Below, one piece after another: positions 3,471-34,642 of a DNA stretch of 64,000 nt (position 1 is its first letter; each line of letters opens with the position of its first letter). Source of the stretch: Chryseobacterium sp. ISL-80 (GTDB lineage Bacteria > Bacillota > Bacilli > Bacillales > Cytobacillaceae); NCBI GenBank assembly GCA_018613055.1, contig JAGGQZ010000013.1, positions 248,001-312,000 of the forward strand, written 5' to 3'. Under the pieces are notes generated by a model that worked only from the letters and a program-made list of their open reading frames with translations, was not told where the DNA came from and ran no database searches. Position numbers and translations under genes: made by a program.

Positions 3471-6400
3471 ATGAAGAGAAAAAAGAGAATCTACAGGCAG
3501 CGGACGAGCTTGTTTCTGGCTGTACTATTGCTTGTCAGCACCTTCTTTCCAGGTGGCCTCGCACTAAAAGCAAGCGCTTCCATTGCTGAACATCTTGTAA
3601 TCAGCCAAGTTTATGGCGGGGGTGGGAATAAGGATGCAGTCTACTCAAACGATTTTGTAGAATTGTACAACCCGACAGAAAAGGAGATTTCTCTAGAAGG
3701 CTGGTCAATTCAAAAAGCCAGCAGTACAGGGACCTCTTGGCAAAAAATTGATTTGAACGGAGTAATCAAACCTTATGGTTATTACTTAATACAAGGAAAA
3801 GCAGGGACTTCGGTCACTGATAAACCACTTCCTCAGTACGATGCAAACGATTCATCCTTTGATTTAAGCAGTACAAAAGGGAAAGTGGTTTTGGTCAATA
3901 ATACGGATCTTGTTTCCGGTCAATATCCTGAAAACATTGTTGATTTTATTGGCTTCGGTGAAGGAACGGTTGGTTTTGAAGGGACGGGACCATCTGCGAC
4001 ACTAACGAATCAAACGAGTGCCCAACGGAGACCATATGCCAATGTGGATCCGGCAACCGGTAAAGGGAATGCATGGGATACAGATGATAATGTGTCTGAT
4101 ATTGTTAATGCAACTCCAGTTCCAAAGAACAGTGTAAGTCCTGTAGAGCCGCCTATGCAATCTGATAAGAGTTTGCAGCCGGTAGGAAACAATGTTCAAT
4201 TTACACTTGATAGTTCTAACGGAAAAGTAATCGGAAACCCTGGAGCTGTTTTGGCAGATTCAGATATTAAAATCTATGAAACTTCCTCAAAAGGTACTGT
4301 CCTAGGCTCTAATAAAGCAGAAGCAGACGGTTCTTTTGAAGTAAGCCTCATAACAGATAAGAATTTATCTTCAATCTTTATCACTGCAACACAGGCTGGA
4401 AAAAAAGAAAGTAATGCGGTCGAAATAAATCTGGCCACTGCCAGTGAGGGCGTTAATGCTGAAAATCTTAGCTACAGTGTTGATGAAAACGGAAATGGGA
4501 CATTGATCGGAAATGAGGGAGCAGCTGTTAGTAATTCCCTGATCAATGTATACCCTGATTCATCAGCAAATAAAGCGGAGCGCCTTAATTCTGAGGTCAC
4601 CGAAGCCATGTCAAATGGCGGATTCAGTGCAATCACCTTTAGCAACGCACCTGAAACAGTTTATGTGACCCAGCAATCAAGCAGTGCGAATGGGATTATG
4701 CTTGAAAGTTCGCCTGTCTCTGTTGAAAAGGCAGATACAGACGCTGTCACTCCTTTGAACGTTGTAAAACAAACAGATTCCAAAGGGCTTTTGACAAATC
4801 TTAATCAATATTTCACTGTCGAAGGTGTTGTCACTGTTGATAATGGAATAATGGGGACACAGAAGAATAACTTCTATATCCAGGATGCGACAGGCGGCAT
4901 CAATATATTTGGCAACTATGATTCAGAGTTGACAATTAAACGCGGGGATAAGCTGCGAATCACAGGTAAAGTCATTGAGTATAAGGGACTAACTGAATTA
5001 GAAGCTACTGCCATTACTAGAGTTGGCGAAGGTAAAACTCTTCCAGCAGCAAAGGAAACGACGATTCAGGAATTAAACACGTTTACTGTAGCGGAGCTTT
5101 TGGAAGGCAGCCTGGTAAAGGTAACTGGTAAAGTTTCCGCTGTTTCTGGTTCAGGTAATGTAAATGTTACTTTAGTGGATGAAAATAATAAATCAACAAC
5201 TGTCAGGGTCATGTCAGCAACAGGAATCAATACGGATACTGACCTTGTAATCGGTAAAAGCTATTCAGTAACCGGAATTGTTGGCCAATATACATCTTCT
5301 ACTACATCACATACAAACGGATATCAAGTATTCCCTCGGGATAAGAAAGATATTGCAGGTGAACTGGGTGTAGAACATACACCATTAACAGAAGTCTATA
5401 AAAATACTCATATTGAGTTTGTAGCAAATGCCAGCGGCGCAGAGTCAGCTGCCGTATACTACAAGGCAAAAAATACCGCTGAGTATACAGTTCTCCCTAT
5501 GACTGCCGGCAGCGATGGCCGATATACTGCGGTTTTGGAAGCATCTCAAGTTCCTGCGGATGGATTCGATTATTTTATTGAAGTTAAAGCAGGAGAAAGT
5601 GTTAAGACATCTGGTACAAAGGATGCTCCGTTTCAGGTGAAAGTGGTTTTGGATGAAGAAGGGCCAAGAATTTACAGCGAAACTCCTGTAGGAGGATCGA
5701 AAGTTGAAAGTCCACGCCCTGAAATCTCGGTATTGCTCGAGGATCCAAGCGGTGTGGATGAAACAAGTGTGAAAGTTTCGCTTGATGGCAGCGAACTTAC
5801 TTCGGCAACCATCTCAAAGAGCCAGGTGAAATTCGTTCCTGCTGAAGATCTATCTCTTGGTGTTCATACCGTTAAGGTAACAGCAAGCGATTCAAGAAAA
5901 AACAACAGTACGTATGAATGGACATTCGAAGTAGTGCCACGCTTTGAAGGCGGACAGCATTTCCGTGGTACAACCCATAACCATACAAATATTTCACATG
6001 ATGGTGCGGGTTCACCTGAGGATGCTTTAAAAGCAGGCAAGAAGTACGGCTACGACTGGTTTGCATTCTCCGATCACTCACATGACATCGATCCGTCTTT
6101 GCTTGGACAGGATACAGTTGATCGTGACGGAATGCAGGAAAGAAAAGGCGGTGCAGACTGGCAGTTAACAAAAAAACTTGCTGCCGACTACACCAAAAAT
6201 GATGAGTTCGTGGTATTCCCTGCGTTTGAAATGACTGCCACTACCTGGGGACACTCAAATATCTTTGGGACAGAGAACTTCATCGATCGCAATATTAATG
6301 GAAAAACATATCAGGATTTAAACAATTATTACGCATGGGTCATGAAATACGATGACATAGTCGGGCAGTTCAACCATCCGGATATGTCAAAAAATGCGTT

Positions 6401-29754: not shown

Positions 29755-30519
29755 ATGATTGACATACATTGTCACATATTGCCGGGGATTGACGACGGTG
29801 CCAGGGGTCTTGATGATACACTTGATATGGCACGTGAAGCGGTGAATGAGGGTATCCATACTATCATCGCAACGCCTCACCACAAAAATAATAAATATGA
29901 TAATCCTCAAGGAATCATCCTTCAAAAAGTAGAGCAAGTAAACAAGGCGCTTTCAAATGAAGGGATTGATTTGAAAATCCTACCGGGACAGGAAGTAAGG
30001 ATCTACGGTGAAGTGATTGGAGACCTCGACAAAGAGGAGATTTTAACCCTGAATCATACTCAATACCTTTTTGTTGAATTCCCTTCAAACCATGTGCCGA
30101 GATATGCCGAGACCTTGTTGTTCGACCTTCAGCTTAAAGGAATTATACCGATTATTGTTCATCCAGAAAGAAATCAGGAGATCATCGAACGTCCTGAGGT
30201 CCTATATAACCTTGTGAAAAAGGGAGCATTGAGCCAGGTTACTGCTTCAAGTGTCAGTGGCCACTTCGGCAAGAAAATCAGAAACTTTTCCTTTCAACTG
30301 ATAGAAGCGAACCTTACCCATTTCATTGCTTCCGATGCCCACAATGTTAGCAGCAGAGGGTTTAAGATGGCTGAAACAATGGATGTTATTGAATCAAAAT
30401 ACGGAATAGACCTAGTCTACTTCTTTCAAGATAATGCGGAACTACTACTTCAAGGAAACCATGTTTATCAGGAGACACCCGAACTCATCAAAAAGAAAAA
30501 GTTCCTCGGAATTTTTTAA
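29755..30519 (+). CDS. PHP-type manganese-dependent tyrosine-protein phosphatase (CpsB/YwqE)
   Basis: A 254-residue cytoplasmic PHP-domain phosphatase of the CpsB/CapC/YwqE family, which dephosphorylates the BY-kinase. The N-terminal MIDIHCHILPGIDDG carries the first metal ligands (H5, H7). ATPHH, GQEVRI, HPERN and SDAHN motifs complete the metal site. AAGGAAGGGG lies before the ATG. It follows the kinase after about 100 bp that hold no terminator, so the three genes form one unit. The EAR-like leader RNA begins right after it. Confidence 0.93.
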   Translation: MIDIHCHILPGIDDGARGLDDTLDMAREAVNEGIHTIIATPHHKNNKYDNPQGIILQKVEQVNKALSNEGIDLKILPGQEVRIYGEVIGDLDKEEILTLNHTQYLFVEFPSNHVPRYAETLLFDLQLKGIIPIIVHPERNQEIIERPEVLYNLVKKGALSQVTASSVSGHFGKKIRNFSFQLIEANLTHFIASDAHNVSSRGFKMAETMDVIESKYGIDLVYFFQDNAELLLQGNHVYQETPELIKKKKFLGIF

Positions 30520-30557
30520 CCGACTTCCAGATTTAACATATTAATTGTCAGAAGAAT

Positions 30558-30680
30558 TGACCGGCGATGCCTCCTGCCCGTTACCAATGGAGGCACTCGA
30601 CCATGCTGTGGGATACAAACCTGTACTCCTTAGACACTTCGGTTGTCAATAGTGTGGTGTGAGGGTGGGTTAAATGCCCA
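30558..30680 (+). ncRNA. EAR-like (epsC-associated) antitermination RNA
   Basis: A structured intergenic segment between the phosphatase and the epsC-type gene, exactly the place where the EAR RNA (Rfam epsC family) sits in Bacillales eps operons. I see a GCCTCC / GGAGGC hairpin (30569-30594) with a C-rich loop and a GGATACA / TGTACTCC hairpin (30611-30629, one bulge). A GACAC / GTTGTC hairpin capped by a UUCG tetraloop (30633-30647) follows. A GGTGGGTT run (30664-30671) could pair with the first loop (GCCCGTTACC) as a pseudoknot. EAR lets RNA polymerase read through distal terminators. Assignment rests on position and structure; I could not run a covariance model. Confidence 0.7.
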
Positions 30681-30779
30681 AAAAACATTGTTAAGATTTT
30701 GTGATTTTCTCCAGTCATTTTTAGACTTGGAGATTTTAGTAATATGTCAAAGAATCAAATCTTTAAAATAAGCCTTAAT

Positions 30780-30837
30780 AAATATCTAATGAAAGTACAT
30801 GTCAAAATACATGGGTTTCCATTAGATATTTATTTTT
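30780..30837 (+). terminator. long AU-rich hairpin upstream of the epsC-type gene
   Basis: AAATATCTAATG / CATTAGATATTT 12-bp perfect outer stem with an inner ACATGT / ACATG arm, followed by ATTTTT. It looks like an intrinsic terminator between the EAR-like RNA and the next gene, and is a likely read-through target. Confidence 0.65.
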
Positions 30838-30889
30838 GTCAGTGTGTCTTTAATAAAGGAAAGTGTTAAAAATTAAAAGGGGGAATACG

Positions 30890-32710
30890 ATGAGTTACCA
30901 TAAACGTTTGCTATTTTTAGCCGGTCTTGATTCGTTGATTGTCTTGTCTGCAATCTACCTAAGTTACATACCACTTCATCCGTCACTTGAAACCTTCAGT
31001 TACGAAGATCTTTTTATAAGTACGATAGTCTTAGTCAGCAGCTATCATTTATTCGCATCACTTTTACAGCTTTATAACAAGGCATGGGAGTATGCGAGTA
31101 TAGGAGAGTTGGTAGGTATTTTTAGGGCAGTATCACTTGCAGTCCTGTCGGTAACATTATTCCAATTGGCATTCGGTTTGCCGGTTTATGGTAGAGTGCT
31201 CTTTAGTGCGTGGTCAATTCTCGTTTTAATGATTGGAGGCTCACGCTTCATCTGGAGAATCTATCGTGACAGATATATCAAGCCAGCTCATGATATGAAA
31301 CGAGTATTGATAGTTGGTGCCGGACAGGCTGGGTCATTACTGGCGAGGCAAATAAAGAATAACCCGGAACTAGGAATGGTAACTGCTGCTTTTATCGATG
31401 ACGACCTGCGTAAATACAAACTTTATATTCTTGGTATTCCTGTAGCTGGAACATCGAAGGATATTACAGCTACGGTTGAAAAATATCAAATTGATAAAAT
31501 CGTCATTGCGATTCCTTCTTTAAATAGGGAGGAACTGAATCGTATATTTGAAGAATGCGCGAAAACAAATGTTAAAACGCAGATCATGCCTAAGATTGAA
31601 GACGTAATGCTTGGAAAGGTAGCAGTCAGTCAGTTCCGTGATGTAGAGGTCGAAGATTTGCTAGGACGTGAGCCAATAAAGTTGGATATTGACAGTATTT
31701 CTGAATATGTTTCAGGCAAAACAGTGCTTGTTACAGGCGCAGGGGGTTCGATAGGTTCTGAAATCTGCCGCCAGATTTGCAGTTTCAGCCCTGGGAAATT
31801 AGTGCTTGTTGGTCATGGTGAAAACAGTATTTATACAATTGATATGGAGCTGCGAAACCAATATGGACAAGCAATTGAGATAATCCCAGTTATTGGGGAT
31901 GTCCAGGATCGTGACCGGATGTTCGAAATTATGGAAGAATATCAACCGAATGTTGTTTACCATGCTGCTGCGCATAAGCATGTGCCATTAATGGAGTACA
32001 ATCCTAGAGAAGCAGTAAAGAATAATGTATTCGGAACGAAAAACGTCGCTGAAGCAGCAGACACATTTAATGTTGAAACGTTTGTACTAGTATCGACAGA
32101 CAAAGCGGTAAATCCTACGAACGTAATGGGATCAACCAAGCGAATTGCTGAGATGATTATTCAGCAATTGGCTCAGCACAGTAAAACGAAATTTGTTGCT
32201 GTCCGTTTTGGTAATGTTCTTGGCAGCCGTGGAAGTGTTATCCCACTATTTAAAAAACAAATTCAGGCTGGCGGACCGGTTACGGTTACTCATCCTGATA
32301 TGACAAGATACTTTATGACAATTCCAGAAGCTTCAAGACTCGTCATCCAGGCGGGATCACTTGCTCGTGGAGGTGAAATCTTTGTGCTTGACATGGGTGA
32401 GCCTGTGAAAATCACAGACCTTGCTAAAAATCTGATCAGATTGTCTGGATATACAATAGAAGAAATCGGCATCAAGTACTCAGGATTGCGACCAGGTGAG
32501 AAGATGTTTGAGGAGTTGTTGAATGAGAAGGAGATTCATCCAGAGCCAATCTTTCCGAAGATTTTTATTGGGAAAGCTGTATTGGATCAGGAAGAAGAAA
32601 TTATTTACCTTTTGGAGCAATTTGAGAATTTTACATCTCCTCAACTGAAAGAGTATGTTATTAATCTGGCTAATCGGAAAAAGAATAAGATTTTTTTGGT
32701 AGCGAAGTAA
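30890..32710 (+). CDS. EpsC/CapD-type membrane NDP-sugar 4,6-dehydratase
   Basis: The start is the ATG at 30890, after AAAAGGGGG; the in-frame GTG at 30863 is upstream of that site. The product has 606 residues. Four membrane helices (about 8-125) are followed by a CoA-binding-like Rossmann domain and then an extended SDR domain. The SDR domain has the NAD motif TGAGGSIG and STDKAVNPTNVMGSTKR, in which Met replaces the usual catalytic Tyr. That change is typical of UDP-GlcNAc 4,6-dehydratases (PglF/EpsC type). It makes a UDP-4-keto-6-deoxy sugar for the first repeat-unit sugar. It lies downstream of the EAR-like RNA and 16 bp before galU. Confidence 0.9.
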   Translation: MSYHKRLLFLAGLDSLIVLSAIYLSYIPLHPSLETFSYEDLFISTIVLVSSYHLFASLLQLYNKAWEYASIGELVGIFRAVSLAVLSVTLFQLAFGLPVYGRVLFSAWSILVLMIGGSRFIWRIYRDRYIKPAHDMKRVLIVGAGQAGSLLARQIKNNPELGMVTAAFIDDDLRKYKLYILGIPVAGTSKDITATVEKYQIDKIVIAIPSLNREELNRIFEECAKTNVKTQIMPKIEDVMLGKVAVSQFRDVEVEDLLGREPIKLDIDSISEYVSGKTVLVTGAGGSIGSEICRQICSFSPGKLVLVGHGENSIYTIDMELRNQYGQAIEIIPVIGDVQDRDRMFEIMEEYQPNVVYHAAAHKHVPLMEYNPREAVKNNVFGTKNVAEAADTFNVETFVLVSTDKAVNPTNVMGSTKRIAEMIIQQLAQHSKTKFVAVRFGNVLGSRGSVIPLFKKQIQAGGPVTVTHPDMTRYFMTIPEASRLVIQAGSLARGGEIFVLDMGEPVKITDLAKNLIRLSGYTIEEIGIKYSGLRPGEKMFEELLNEKEIHPEPIFPKIFIGKAVLDQEEEIIYLLEQFENFTSPQLKEYVINLANRKKNKIFLVAK

Positions 32711-32726
32711 TGAGGAGGCATAATTA

Positions 32727-33605
32727 GTGAAGAAAGTGAGAAAAGCAATTATTCCGGCGGCAGGGCTAGGAACAAGGTTTTTGCCAGCAACGAAAGCAAT
32801 GCCAAAAGAAATGTTGCCGATAGTTGATAAACCCACTATTCAATACATAGTTGAAGAGGCGGTTGCTTCAGGTATTGAGGATATTATCATTGTTACAGGG
32901 AAAGGAAAGCGCGCGATAGAGGATCATTTTGATTTTGCTCATGAGCTTGAACAGAACCTTTTGGAGAAGGGTAAGTTGGATATTCTTGAAAAGGTTCGTT
33001 ATTCTACTAACCTTGCGGATATTCATTATATTCGGCAAAAAGAGCCTAAAGGTCTAGGTCATGCAGTATGGTGTGCGCGTAACTTTATTGGAGATGAGCC
33101 ATTTGCTGTATTGCTAGGTGATGACATCGTGAAAAGTGATACACCTTGTCTTCGTCAGTTAATAGACCAGTATGAACAAACACATTCTTCTATGATTGGT
33201 GTTCAAACTGTGCCGAATGAGGAAACGCATCGTTATGGAATTGTTGAACCTTCTATTCAGATTGGAAGAAGATATCAGGTTGAAAACTTTGTCGAGAAAC
33301 CTGCGCATGGAACTGCTCCTTCAAATCTTGCAATTATGGGAAGGTATATTCTTACACCTGAGATTTTCATGTTCCTGGACGCAATGGAAACAGGTGCTGG
33401 TGGGGAGATTCAGCTGACGGATGCGATTCAGAAGTTGAACCAGACTCAACGAGTGTTTGCTTATGATTTTGAAGGAAAGCGATATGATGTTGGGGAGAAG
33501 ATTGGGTTCGTGAAGACTACAGTGGATTTTGCGTTGCAGAATGAAGAGCTGCGATCTGATTTGCTTGCCTATCTGGTTGAGGTGTTGGCAAAAGAAAAAG
33601 TTTAA
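32727..33605 (+). CDS. galU: UTP-glucose-1-phosphate uridylyltransferase
   Basis: A 292-residue enzyme of the GalU/GtaB family that makes UDP-glucose from UTP and glucose-1-phosphate. The N-terminal [21 protein letters not shown] nucleotide-binding segment, LLGDD, EKP and [10 protein letters not shown] motifs are all present. The GTG start has GAGGAGG at good spacing. UDP-glucose would feed galE downstream, teichoic acid glucosylation and glycolipid anchors. It is the last gene before a clear terminator and a change to strongly A+T-rich glycosyltransferase genes. Confidence 0.95.
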
Positions 33606-33616
33606 TATTATTGATT

Positions 33617-33658
33617 AACCCGGGTTCTCTTGAATATAAGAGATCCGGGGTGTTTTTT
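33617..33658 (+). terminator. terminator after galU
   Basis: AACCCGGGTTCTCTT paired with AAGAGATCCGGGGT (nearly perfect), followed by GTTTTTT. It separates galU from the variable glycosyltransferase block, so read-through or a new promoter is required there. Confidence 0.88.
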
Positions 33659-34012
33659 GAGTGCTTTCTGAGATAAATCCTTTACAAGTGATTAGTGAAA
33701 TATAGTTAGAAAGGTTTATGAGGGATACAAGAGGTTACGGTGAGAGTTGTTAGCTGTTTTGTCTCATATTCAGAAAGTTTAATGGTTGCTGTTCCTTCCT
33801 TTGATCGTTTTACGATGGAGCTATAAAGAACGTAATGTGAGATTAATGAGACAAGTTGATAAAAATCACGAAGAGTTTCCGGTGGCCTTAACATTTGTTA
33901 ATTGGGAAGTTTTGTGTATCAATGTTTAGTAGTTTAGTAGTTGGTTAGAACGGGGTCCAATTTATCTACTTAAGTCCTAAATTACTAAATATTTATTAGG
34001 GAGTGTGACATT
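33659..34012. other. intergenic stretch, possible decayed coding remnant
   Basis: About 350 bp between the galU terminator and the sugar transferase. A minus-strand frame of 62 codons (33706-33894) is open but has no ribosome site. I see no inverted repeats or transposase motifs and no convincing promoter. It marks the junction between the conserved and A+T-rich variable parts and may be debris from past exchange. Confidence 0.4.
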
Positions 34013-34642
34013 ATGTATTTTAAAATAAAAAGACTGCTAGATATTATTCTTTCTTTATTAGGACTTATAGTTTTATCTCCTATTTTCTTAATGCTAGTTA
34101 TCGCCATCAAAATCGATTCAAGAGGCCCGGTACTGTTTAAGCAGAAACGGATAGGAATTAACAAAACGCATTTTAATATATTAAAATTCAGGACTATGAC
34201 AGTAGATACTCCTAATGACACACCTACTCATCTATTAACAGATCCGGAGCAGTACATTACAAGAGTGGGTAAGTTCTTGAGAAGAACTTCACTTGATGAA
34301 CTACCGCAAATTTGGAATATCTTTGCTGGGCATATGAGTATTATTGGGCCAAGGCCAGCACTGTGGAATCAGTACGATTTAATCGCTGAACGAGATAAAT
34401 ATGGTGCCAATAATATACCTCCCGGACTAACAGGTTGGGCACAAATCAATGGGCGTGATGAGCTTCCGATTGAAGTTAAAGCAAAGTTAGATGGGTATTA
34501 TGTTGAGAAAATTAGTTTTCGAATGGATGTCAGGTGCTTTCTTGAAACTATTATAAGTGTTGCAAAAAGTGACGGGGTTGTTGAGGGTGGTACTGGCGTT
34601 AAGAAAGAAAATGCCGGTATTAAGGAGAGAGCTTTTAAATGA
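34013..34642 (+). CDS. initiating sugar phosphotransferase (undecaprenyl-phosphate, WcaJ/EpsL type)
   Basis: A 209-residue Bac_transf enzyme that moves a sugar-1-phosphate onto undecaprenyl phosphate to start the polysaccharide repeat unit. It has one N-terminal membrane segment (about 10-35), then the catalytic helix region with KFRTM and the family signatures RRTSLDELPQ, IIGPRP and PGLTGWAQINGR. It is the short monotopic form. With a 4,6-dehydratase and a reductase next door, the first sugar may be a 6-deoxy-amino sugar. GGGAG precedes the ATG, and the stop overlaps the next start (ATGA). Confidence 0.93.
   Translation: MYFKIKRLLDIILSLLGLIVLSPIFLMLVIAIKIDSRGPVLFKQKRIGINKTHFNILKFRTMTVDTPNDTPTHLLTDPEQYITRVGKFLRRTSLDELPQIWNIFAGHMSIIGPRPALWNQYDLIAERDKYGANNIPPGLTGWAQINGRDELPIEVKAKLDGYYVEKISFRMDVRCFLETIISVAKSDGVVEGGTGVKKENAGIKERAFK

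Follow-up and report, generated by a model that had tools for sequence, protein, structure and literature searches.

The 64-kb window analyzed here (the whole stretch of DNA, 64,000 nucleotides) carries an EAR (epsC) RNA ahead of an EpsC-type gene and, behind this RNA, a long AU-rich hairpin that is conserved and covarying in the company of EARs. EAR itself is known and common and its presence is ordinary; the conserved long hairpin behind it is the less expected part of the finding. From the computational comparisons set out below we consider it reasonably likely that this hairpin is a putative terminator standing behind the antiterminator EAR, where it would control entry into the operon, and such a gate is the simplest reading of the two elements together. 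In the parts of the literature available to us, EAR is described as a requirement for polymerase to transcribe the eps operon in full, past distal intrinsic terminators (PMC7858274), and as able to antiterminate foreign terminators as well (PMC7858274, citing Irnov and Winkler 2010), and it is one of two systems named as RNA antiterminators without a dedicated protein (PMC8955417). The searched portion of the EAR literature, the scope of which excludes Irnov and Winkler 2010 and the Goodson and Winkler review, makes no mention of a hairpin directly behind EAR and no statement of what EAR must first overcome.

When the whole window was searched with Infernal, RF01735 (epsC/EAR RNA) was the sole Rfam family above its curated threshold, with a full-length match (model positions 1-117 of 117; E = 1.1e-16) that scores far above the gathering score of 42 (Table 1); scanning the short stretch alone with cmscan returned the same position and score. 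The first-pass annotation had placed the element at 30558-30680, and the three hairpins that it described are P1, P3 and P4 of the Rfam consensus, its cUUCGg loop being apical in P4 (30637-30642); it had overlooked helix P2 (30596-30607 with 30651-30663), which encloses P3 and P4, as well as hairpin P5 at the 3′ end. The fold was examined over 61 EARs, namely the window and 60 loci from many genera chosen among the highest-scoring listed matches of the order, a choice in which weak EARs are under-represented. Standard pairs occupy 94.8% of the pair cells in this alignment, and double-sided changes are seen in 23 of the 40 EAR pairs (pseudoknot included), against 0 of 500 shuffles, a count that is not a probability since many rows are related; P3 varies in its distal part. 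Given this covariation and standard pairing, the fold is not a product of chance. The folding energy is unremarkable (z = -1.27, with 19 of 200 shuffles equally good), so that the element would not be detectable from folding energy alone. The window sequence is a genuine EAR copy.

One part of the original description did not stand, namely the pairing of the first loop with a downstream G-rich run. Near 30665, in the one register tested, none of the four pairs of such a pseudoknot is doubly changed, and columns 20 and 117 of the alignment are unpaired in 44 of the 61 EARs. The P1 loop covaries instead with the four bases at the EAR 5′ end, for which 95.5% of the cells are paired over the same 61 EARs; the pair between columns 1 and 20 shows a double change in 30 of the 61 rows (CG 17, UA 15, AU 14, UG 8, GU 1, other 6). 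As read from this alignment, three of the four pseudoknot pairs are standard in the window, the exception being a C-C. Once the partner of the loop is corrected in this way, the earlier interpretation of an EAR ahead of an epsC-type gene is supported by the match to the Rfam covariance model, by covariation that extends to the pseudoknot, and by placement within a polysaccharide cluster.

Table 1. Features of the EAR locus, in window coordinates (5′ to 3′).
Feature	Position	Strand	Evidence
CpsB/CapC-type phosphatase gene, 5′ of EAR	29755..30519	+	PF19567, 213.6 bits
EAR / epsC RNA (RF01735), full length	30562..30680	+	cmscan 102.8 bits; alignment and pair counts
EAR pseudoknot 5′ strand, partner 30577-30580 in P1 loop	30562..30565	+	covariation, 61 EARs
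EAR hairpin P1, large loop	30568..30595	+	Rfam consensus structure; 99.5% of cells paired
EAR helix P2 around P3 (30610-30630) and P4 (30633-30647)	30596..30663	+	Rfam consensus, pair counts
EAR terminal hairpin P5	30666..30680	+	Rfam consensus, pair counts
Short hairpin (9 bp) then TTTTAG, first terminator-like site behind EAR	30708..30733	+	fold scan
EAR-companion long AU-rich stem (~23 bp), terminator-like	30777..30834	+	folding, covariation, genome searches
EpsC-type nucleotide-sugar dehydratase gene, 3′ of EAR	30890..32710	+	PF02719, 425 bits
galU, UTP-glucose-1-phosphate uridylyltransferase	32727..33605	+	TIGR01099, above cut-off
GC-rich hairpin then GTGTTTTTTG, intrinsic-terminator-like site within the cluster	33619..33649	+	hairpin scans

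The genes around the element are those of a polysaccharide cluster. On the upstream side of EAR the cluster encodes a Wzz-type chain-length protein and a tyrosine autokinase in addition to the CpsB/CapC-type phosphatase, and among the cluster genes that were searched downstream of galU there are a sugar transferase, at least one family 2 glycosyltransferase and a polysaccharide-export-type membrane protein. A simple script assigned the gene starts. That of the EpsC-type gene is an ATG preceded by a GGGGG site, in an open frame that at its longest begins at 30863, and a PseB-like match of this gene falls below the PseB family cut-off. The window EAR thus lies among polysaccharide genes and before an epsC-like gene, which is the placement of RF01735 and agrees with the available parts of the published descriptions, where the family precedes an EpsC-type gene in a polysaccharide cluster (PMC2864571, PMC7858274). 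In sequence, fold, pseudoknot and position it is like the EAR of Bacillus subtilis and other Bacillales (RF01735).

The terminators that the first-pass annotation had named at 30780 and 33617 were recovered as hairpins with U-rich tails (30777-30834 and 33619-33649); the standard terminator scan does not list the former, and the latter is absent from the list of a simple terminator scan. Behind the second of them, and sharing with it a gap of 407 nt, a further long hairpin (24 pairs) occupies 33923-33991, some 20 nt ahead of the sugar-transferase gene at 34013; after it comes TTTATTAG. Between EAR and the long hairpin there is also a short U-tailed hairpin (Table 1), and comparable short ones precede the long hairpin in two loci of the genus (L026, L027) and in locus L007. 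The long hairpin has a dG of -20.5 (z = -4.84, equalled by 0 of 200 shuffles), and its stem runs into a U-rich stretch at 30830-30838, so that it shares with intrinsic terminators a stable stem joined directly to a U-tract. It differs from them in that their stem is short and G+C-rich: across 37 convergent gaps from this set of loci, the stems of U-tailed hairpins have a median of 13 bp. Of 15 such convergent-gap hairpins 5 nonetheless reach at least 18 bp, which slightly lowers our confidence in the gate reading. Searched against this genome, the 86-base DNA of the long hairpin has no match with E below 0.3 other than itself and its reverse complement, and we therefore discarded a dispersed repeat as its origin; membership in a described Rfam family was likewise rejected, as non-epsC matches lie far under their gathering scores.

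Evidence that the paired structure itself is maintained comes from 36 sequences, that of the window among them, namely stretches behind EARs that carry the motif of the stem 5′ arm and in which both arms are visible, chosen by eye. Of 173 regions 43 have this motif, and the seven left out are L010, L011, L012, L014, L015 and L113, where it falls on the ribosome-binding site, and L200, which is genuine. Over the 36 sequences 92.7% of the cells are paired and 17 of the 24 pairs are doubly changed, against 0 of 500 shuffles and 5 to 9 pairs in slid controls. A narrower alignment of 15 sequences (14 from the genus and L007) has 8 of 24 pairs doubly changed, by one cell each and, as we read the alignment, mostly from L007. 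The sequence beyond the pairing is conserved on one side: the 12 nt after the CG/UA pair of columns 10 and 52 hold on average 7.86 T, and the mirror 12 nt before it 5.17 A (p = 1e-7, 36 sequences), and one base of the U-tract is T in 36 of 36 sequences, the opposite base being A in 18, G in 16 and T in 2. Selection on a U-tract would be expected to produce just such one-sided conservation of T.

Hairpins of this type are tied closely to EAR. A covariance model built from the window-type alignment was searched over whole genomes, and in 41 relatives all 18 distinct model places adjoin an EAR, as compared by reading. In 299 genomes of the order the model finds 50 distinct places, of which 46 have an EAR 9-274 nt upstream, counting as one place the matches on both strands of a stem, of which the better strand may differ from that of EAR (as in genome G204). 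Leaving out 12 training places the figure is 34 of 38, with 14 further training rows from named records that are possibly the same genomes as some of those searched. Conversely, 46 of the 69 EARs in the 49 genomes that hold model places have a window-type match. One place away from an EAR, L245 (about 3535-3605, minus strand), is a strong match of 62 bits directly before galU, and no EAR was found in its 8-kb locus; L246 lies between two genes that are not polysaccharide-like, with no EAR within 400 nt. L247 and L248, also without an EAR within 400 nt, are weak matches, with surroundings searched by Rfam only.

Such close association, together with the short spacing (9-116 nt for 42 of these 46), also accords with a hairpin that belongs to the antitermination machinery itself, for instance one at which polymerase would pause while EAR folds and docks. 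We regard this as improbable, because the spacing varies from 9 to 274 nt over all places and 24 of 125 pooled EAR regions have no such stem.

These pooled regions give the broader picture of long stems behind EAR. They are 125 of the 173 regions; the other 48 were too short or had no gene start that could be called 40 nt or more downstream. In the stretch from EAR to the following gene, 101 of the 125 have a stem of at least 16 bp with dG of -14 or lower, against 213 of 2500 shuffles (8.5%), and under a strict criterion the numbers are 76 of 125 and 17 of 2500. The 89 regions without the 5′-arm motif of the window have 68 stems, 52 of them strict (shuffles: 162 and 15 of 1780), in a split whose motif group includes some ribosome-binding-site motif matches. 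Comparison with neighboring gaps, for which EAR gaps of 50-400 nt were used (8 of 61 loci gave none), points the same way. When a U-tail, a stem of 18 bp or more and a dG of -15 or lower are all required, 31 of 53 EAR gaps qualify, against 11 of 140 downstream same-strand gaps and 0 of 25 gaps upstream of EAR; compact stems, for which no tail was required, are found in 35 of 53 EAR gaps, 13 of 124 downstream and 2 of 24 upstream gaps. A loose criterion with the same length and energy and no tail gives 45 of 53 EAR gaps, 43 of 124 downstream gaps, 2 of 24 upstream gaps and 145 of 1060 shuffled EAR gaps; being frequent in controls, it yields here to the stricter ones. Within the genus a long stem is found at 24 of 25 EARs from 21 genomes, with a mean GC of 27%; a long stem with a T-rich tail was found in 21 of 22 loci, all but L013, in a search of which the tail was a part, and at the other three EAR places there are matches to the hairpin covariance model.

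The tail is less general than the stem. A search that did not ask for it gave many stems without a U-tract, and the idea that the companion of EAR is always a terminator was dropped: the terminator reading is not general, as other lineages keep the stem without the U-tract. Over all hairpin types, at least 7 T of 12 follow the stem in 33 of 71 cases and at least 7 A precede it in 16 of 71 (T versus A, p = 0.14), the 71 stems being what is left of 102 after 31 were omitted in which the sequence spacing EAR and stem was insufficient; these 102 come from a separate count over the 125 pooled regions, for which 101 is the figure used above. Several EAR loci have a long stem and no U-tract at all. 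Among them are five EpsC loci in which the stem ends on the ribosome-binding site or just ahead of it; L055 and L057 have no such stem. In these seven loci the EpsC start is one that we take to resemble that of Bacillus subtilis EpsC, and by this likeness the window differs from B. subtilis-like EAR loci, its long stem being U-tailed and theirs having no U-tract. The long stem behind EAR in L031, L040 and L041 carries a run of 6-7 T in its apical portion, where a shorter terminator-like fold could form ahead of the complete long stem.

Variation of this kind bears on another explanation, in which the long stem would be an RNA-processing or stability element, either an RNase III cut site or a protective 5′ barrier, and EAR would act only on distal terminators such as 33619-33649. 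The 71 counted stems, which have at least 20 pairs regardless of sequence, are consistent with it, as are the many lineages in which the U-tract is absent and the usual proximity of the stem to the gene start (median 40 nt, 71 stems). The window type speaks against it by keeping its U-tract beyond the pairing, and so do the T-rich tails behind the stems of the genus, to the extent that a tail which was part of the search can. We judge a processing or stability role rather unlikely overall and treat it as a serious rival, at least beyond the lineage of the window.

For the window itself we return to the gate. The nascent EAR RNA would fold into P1-P5 and the pseudoknot between its 5′ flank and the P1 loop, and the folded EAR would then join the transcribing polymerase and make it resistant to downstream terminators. 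The hairpin that ends in the U-rich stretch at 30838, coming after the shorter one at 30708-30733, would stop any polymerase on which EAR has not formed, and only the EAR-modified polymerase would reach the biosynthetic genes, going on to pass 33619-33649 too. Termination at the hairpin, its override by EAR and an EAR that acts as in Bacillus subtilis are all inferred here. On the side of the gate are a stem that is conserved, covarying and nearly exclusive to EARs, and a U-tract kept beyond the pairing; against it are an AU-rich stem unlike that of textbook intrinsic terminators, an excess of U-tracts that is not directional over all types, and the occurrence of long U-tailed stems outside EAR loci. 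Terminators with long stems reportedly resist processive antitermination, to go by the title of Miguel-Arribas 2023; resistance of this kind would work against a gate opened by EAR, and it makes the arrangement something of a puzzle.

The long hairpin might instead be the ordinary end of the upstream transcript, with the EpsC-type gene transcribed from its own promoter and EAR irrelevant in this species. A promoter scan restricted to sigma-A-like sites gave no match in 30500-30950, a restriction that leaves this alternative some room, and the hairpin is separated from the EpsC-type start codon by only 55 nt. From these two observations polymerase presumably passes both hairpins. They also make a separate promoter very improbable, as do the high-scoring EAR and its covarying family. 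The first-pass annotation had the whole operon depend on EAR because of clear terminators behind it; for 30780 that inference is strengthened by the conserved EAR-companion hairpin and by the lack of a sigma-A-like promoter match.

Several known systems resemble the proposed arrangement in part. The put RNA of phage HK022, which we liken to EAR by description alone, is, in the available parts of the accounts, also a cis-acting nascent RNA that antiterminates without a dedicated protein (PMC11658703, PMC8955417), and the same parts do not exclude host factors for EAR (PMC11658703, PMC8955417). The conAn system of plasmid pLS20 and canT of Tn916, as far as their partly available descriptions go, share with EAR an RNA-based processive antitermination that serves long operons with internal terminators; they differ in belonging to conjugation operons, and conAn also has a protein component. 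LoaP, a NusG paralogue, likewise brings about processive antitermination in Bacillus according to the accessible part of its literature, but as a protein factor; a LoaP-type paralogue was not detected in the present genome, in which the NusG domain (PF02357) occurs in a single protein.

Beyond the window, we put forward more tentatively a two-part module in much of the order, consisting of EAR and a dedicated long-stem hairpin, the commonest type of which covaries and is rarely found away from EARs. In the lineage of the window this hairpin may be an EAR-gated terminator or a loading pause and would make access to capsule or biofilm operons all-or-nothing. The terminator would overlap the last helix of EAR in a few loci, so that the two folds would be mutually exclusive. 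Under a criterion of exact pairing over 6-7 bp, one strand of the last EAR hairpin can pair instead with a stretch shortly downstream that is followed by a T-run in 3 of 172 distinct EAR stretches, namely those of Anoxybacillus mongoliensis (L138), Geobacillus thermodenitrificans (L199) and one genome represented by L048/L070; in these three, terminator and P5 of EAR would exclude each other. If the gate is real, it predicts how leaky transcription of costly polysaccharide operons stays off. EAR and gate together span about 280 nt and form a compact natural substrate for test-tube work on antitermination.

Among the 41 genomes searched as relatives, which include that of the window, 27 hold an EAR, as do 259 of the 397 sampled from the order and 49 of the 299 sampled from the class, the searches over more than 40 genomes having used strict filters by which weak matches are lost. 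A pattern scan of species genomes gave at least 118 EAR stretches, and the 80 listed ones used here belong by record title to Bacillaceae, Paenibacillus, Cohnella and others. One locus with an EAR-pattern match, L201, comes from a record titled Pseudomonas sp. ISL-84, which may be mislabelled or mixed. A single pattern run over viral contigs returned 0 matches.

A second EAR of the genome lies on another contig (L001; G000 C9, 235615-235727, minus strand, 108.8 bits), and the gene that it precedes is EpsC-like by its start and length. Within about 10 nt it is followed by a different long U-tailed hairpin, then by a small ORF (MKEIDKFPKS...) and then by the EpsC-like gene; small ORFs similar to this one are found at related loci.
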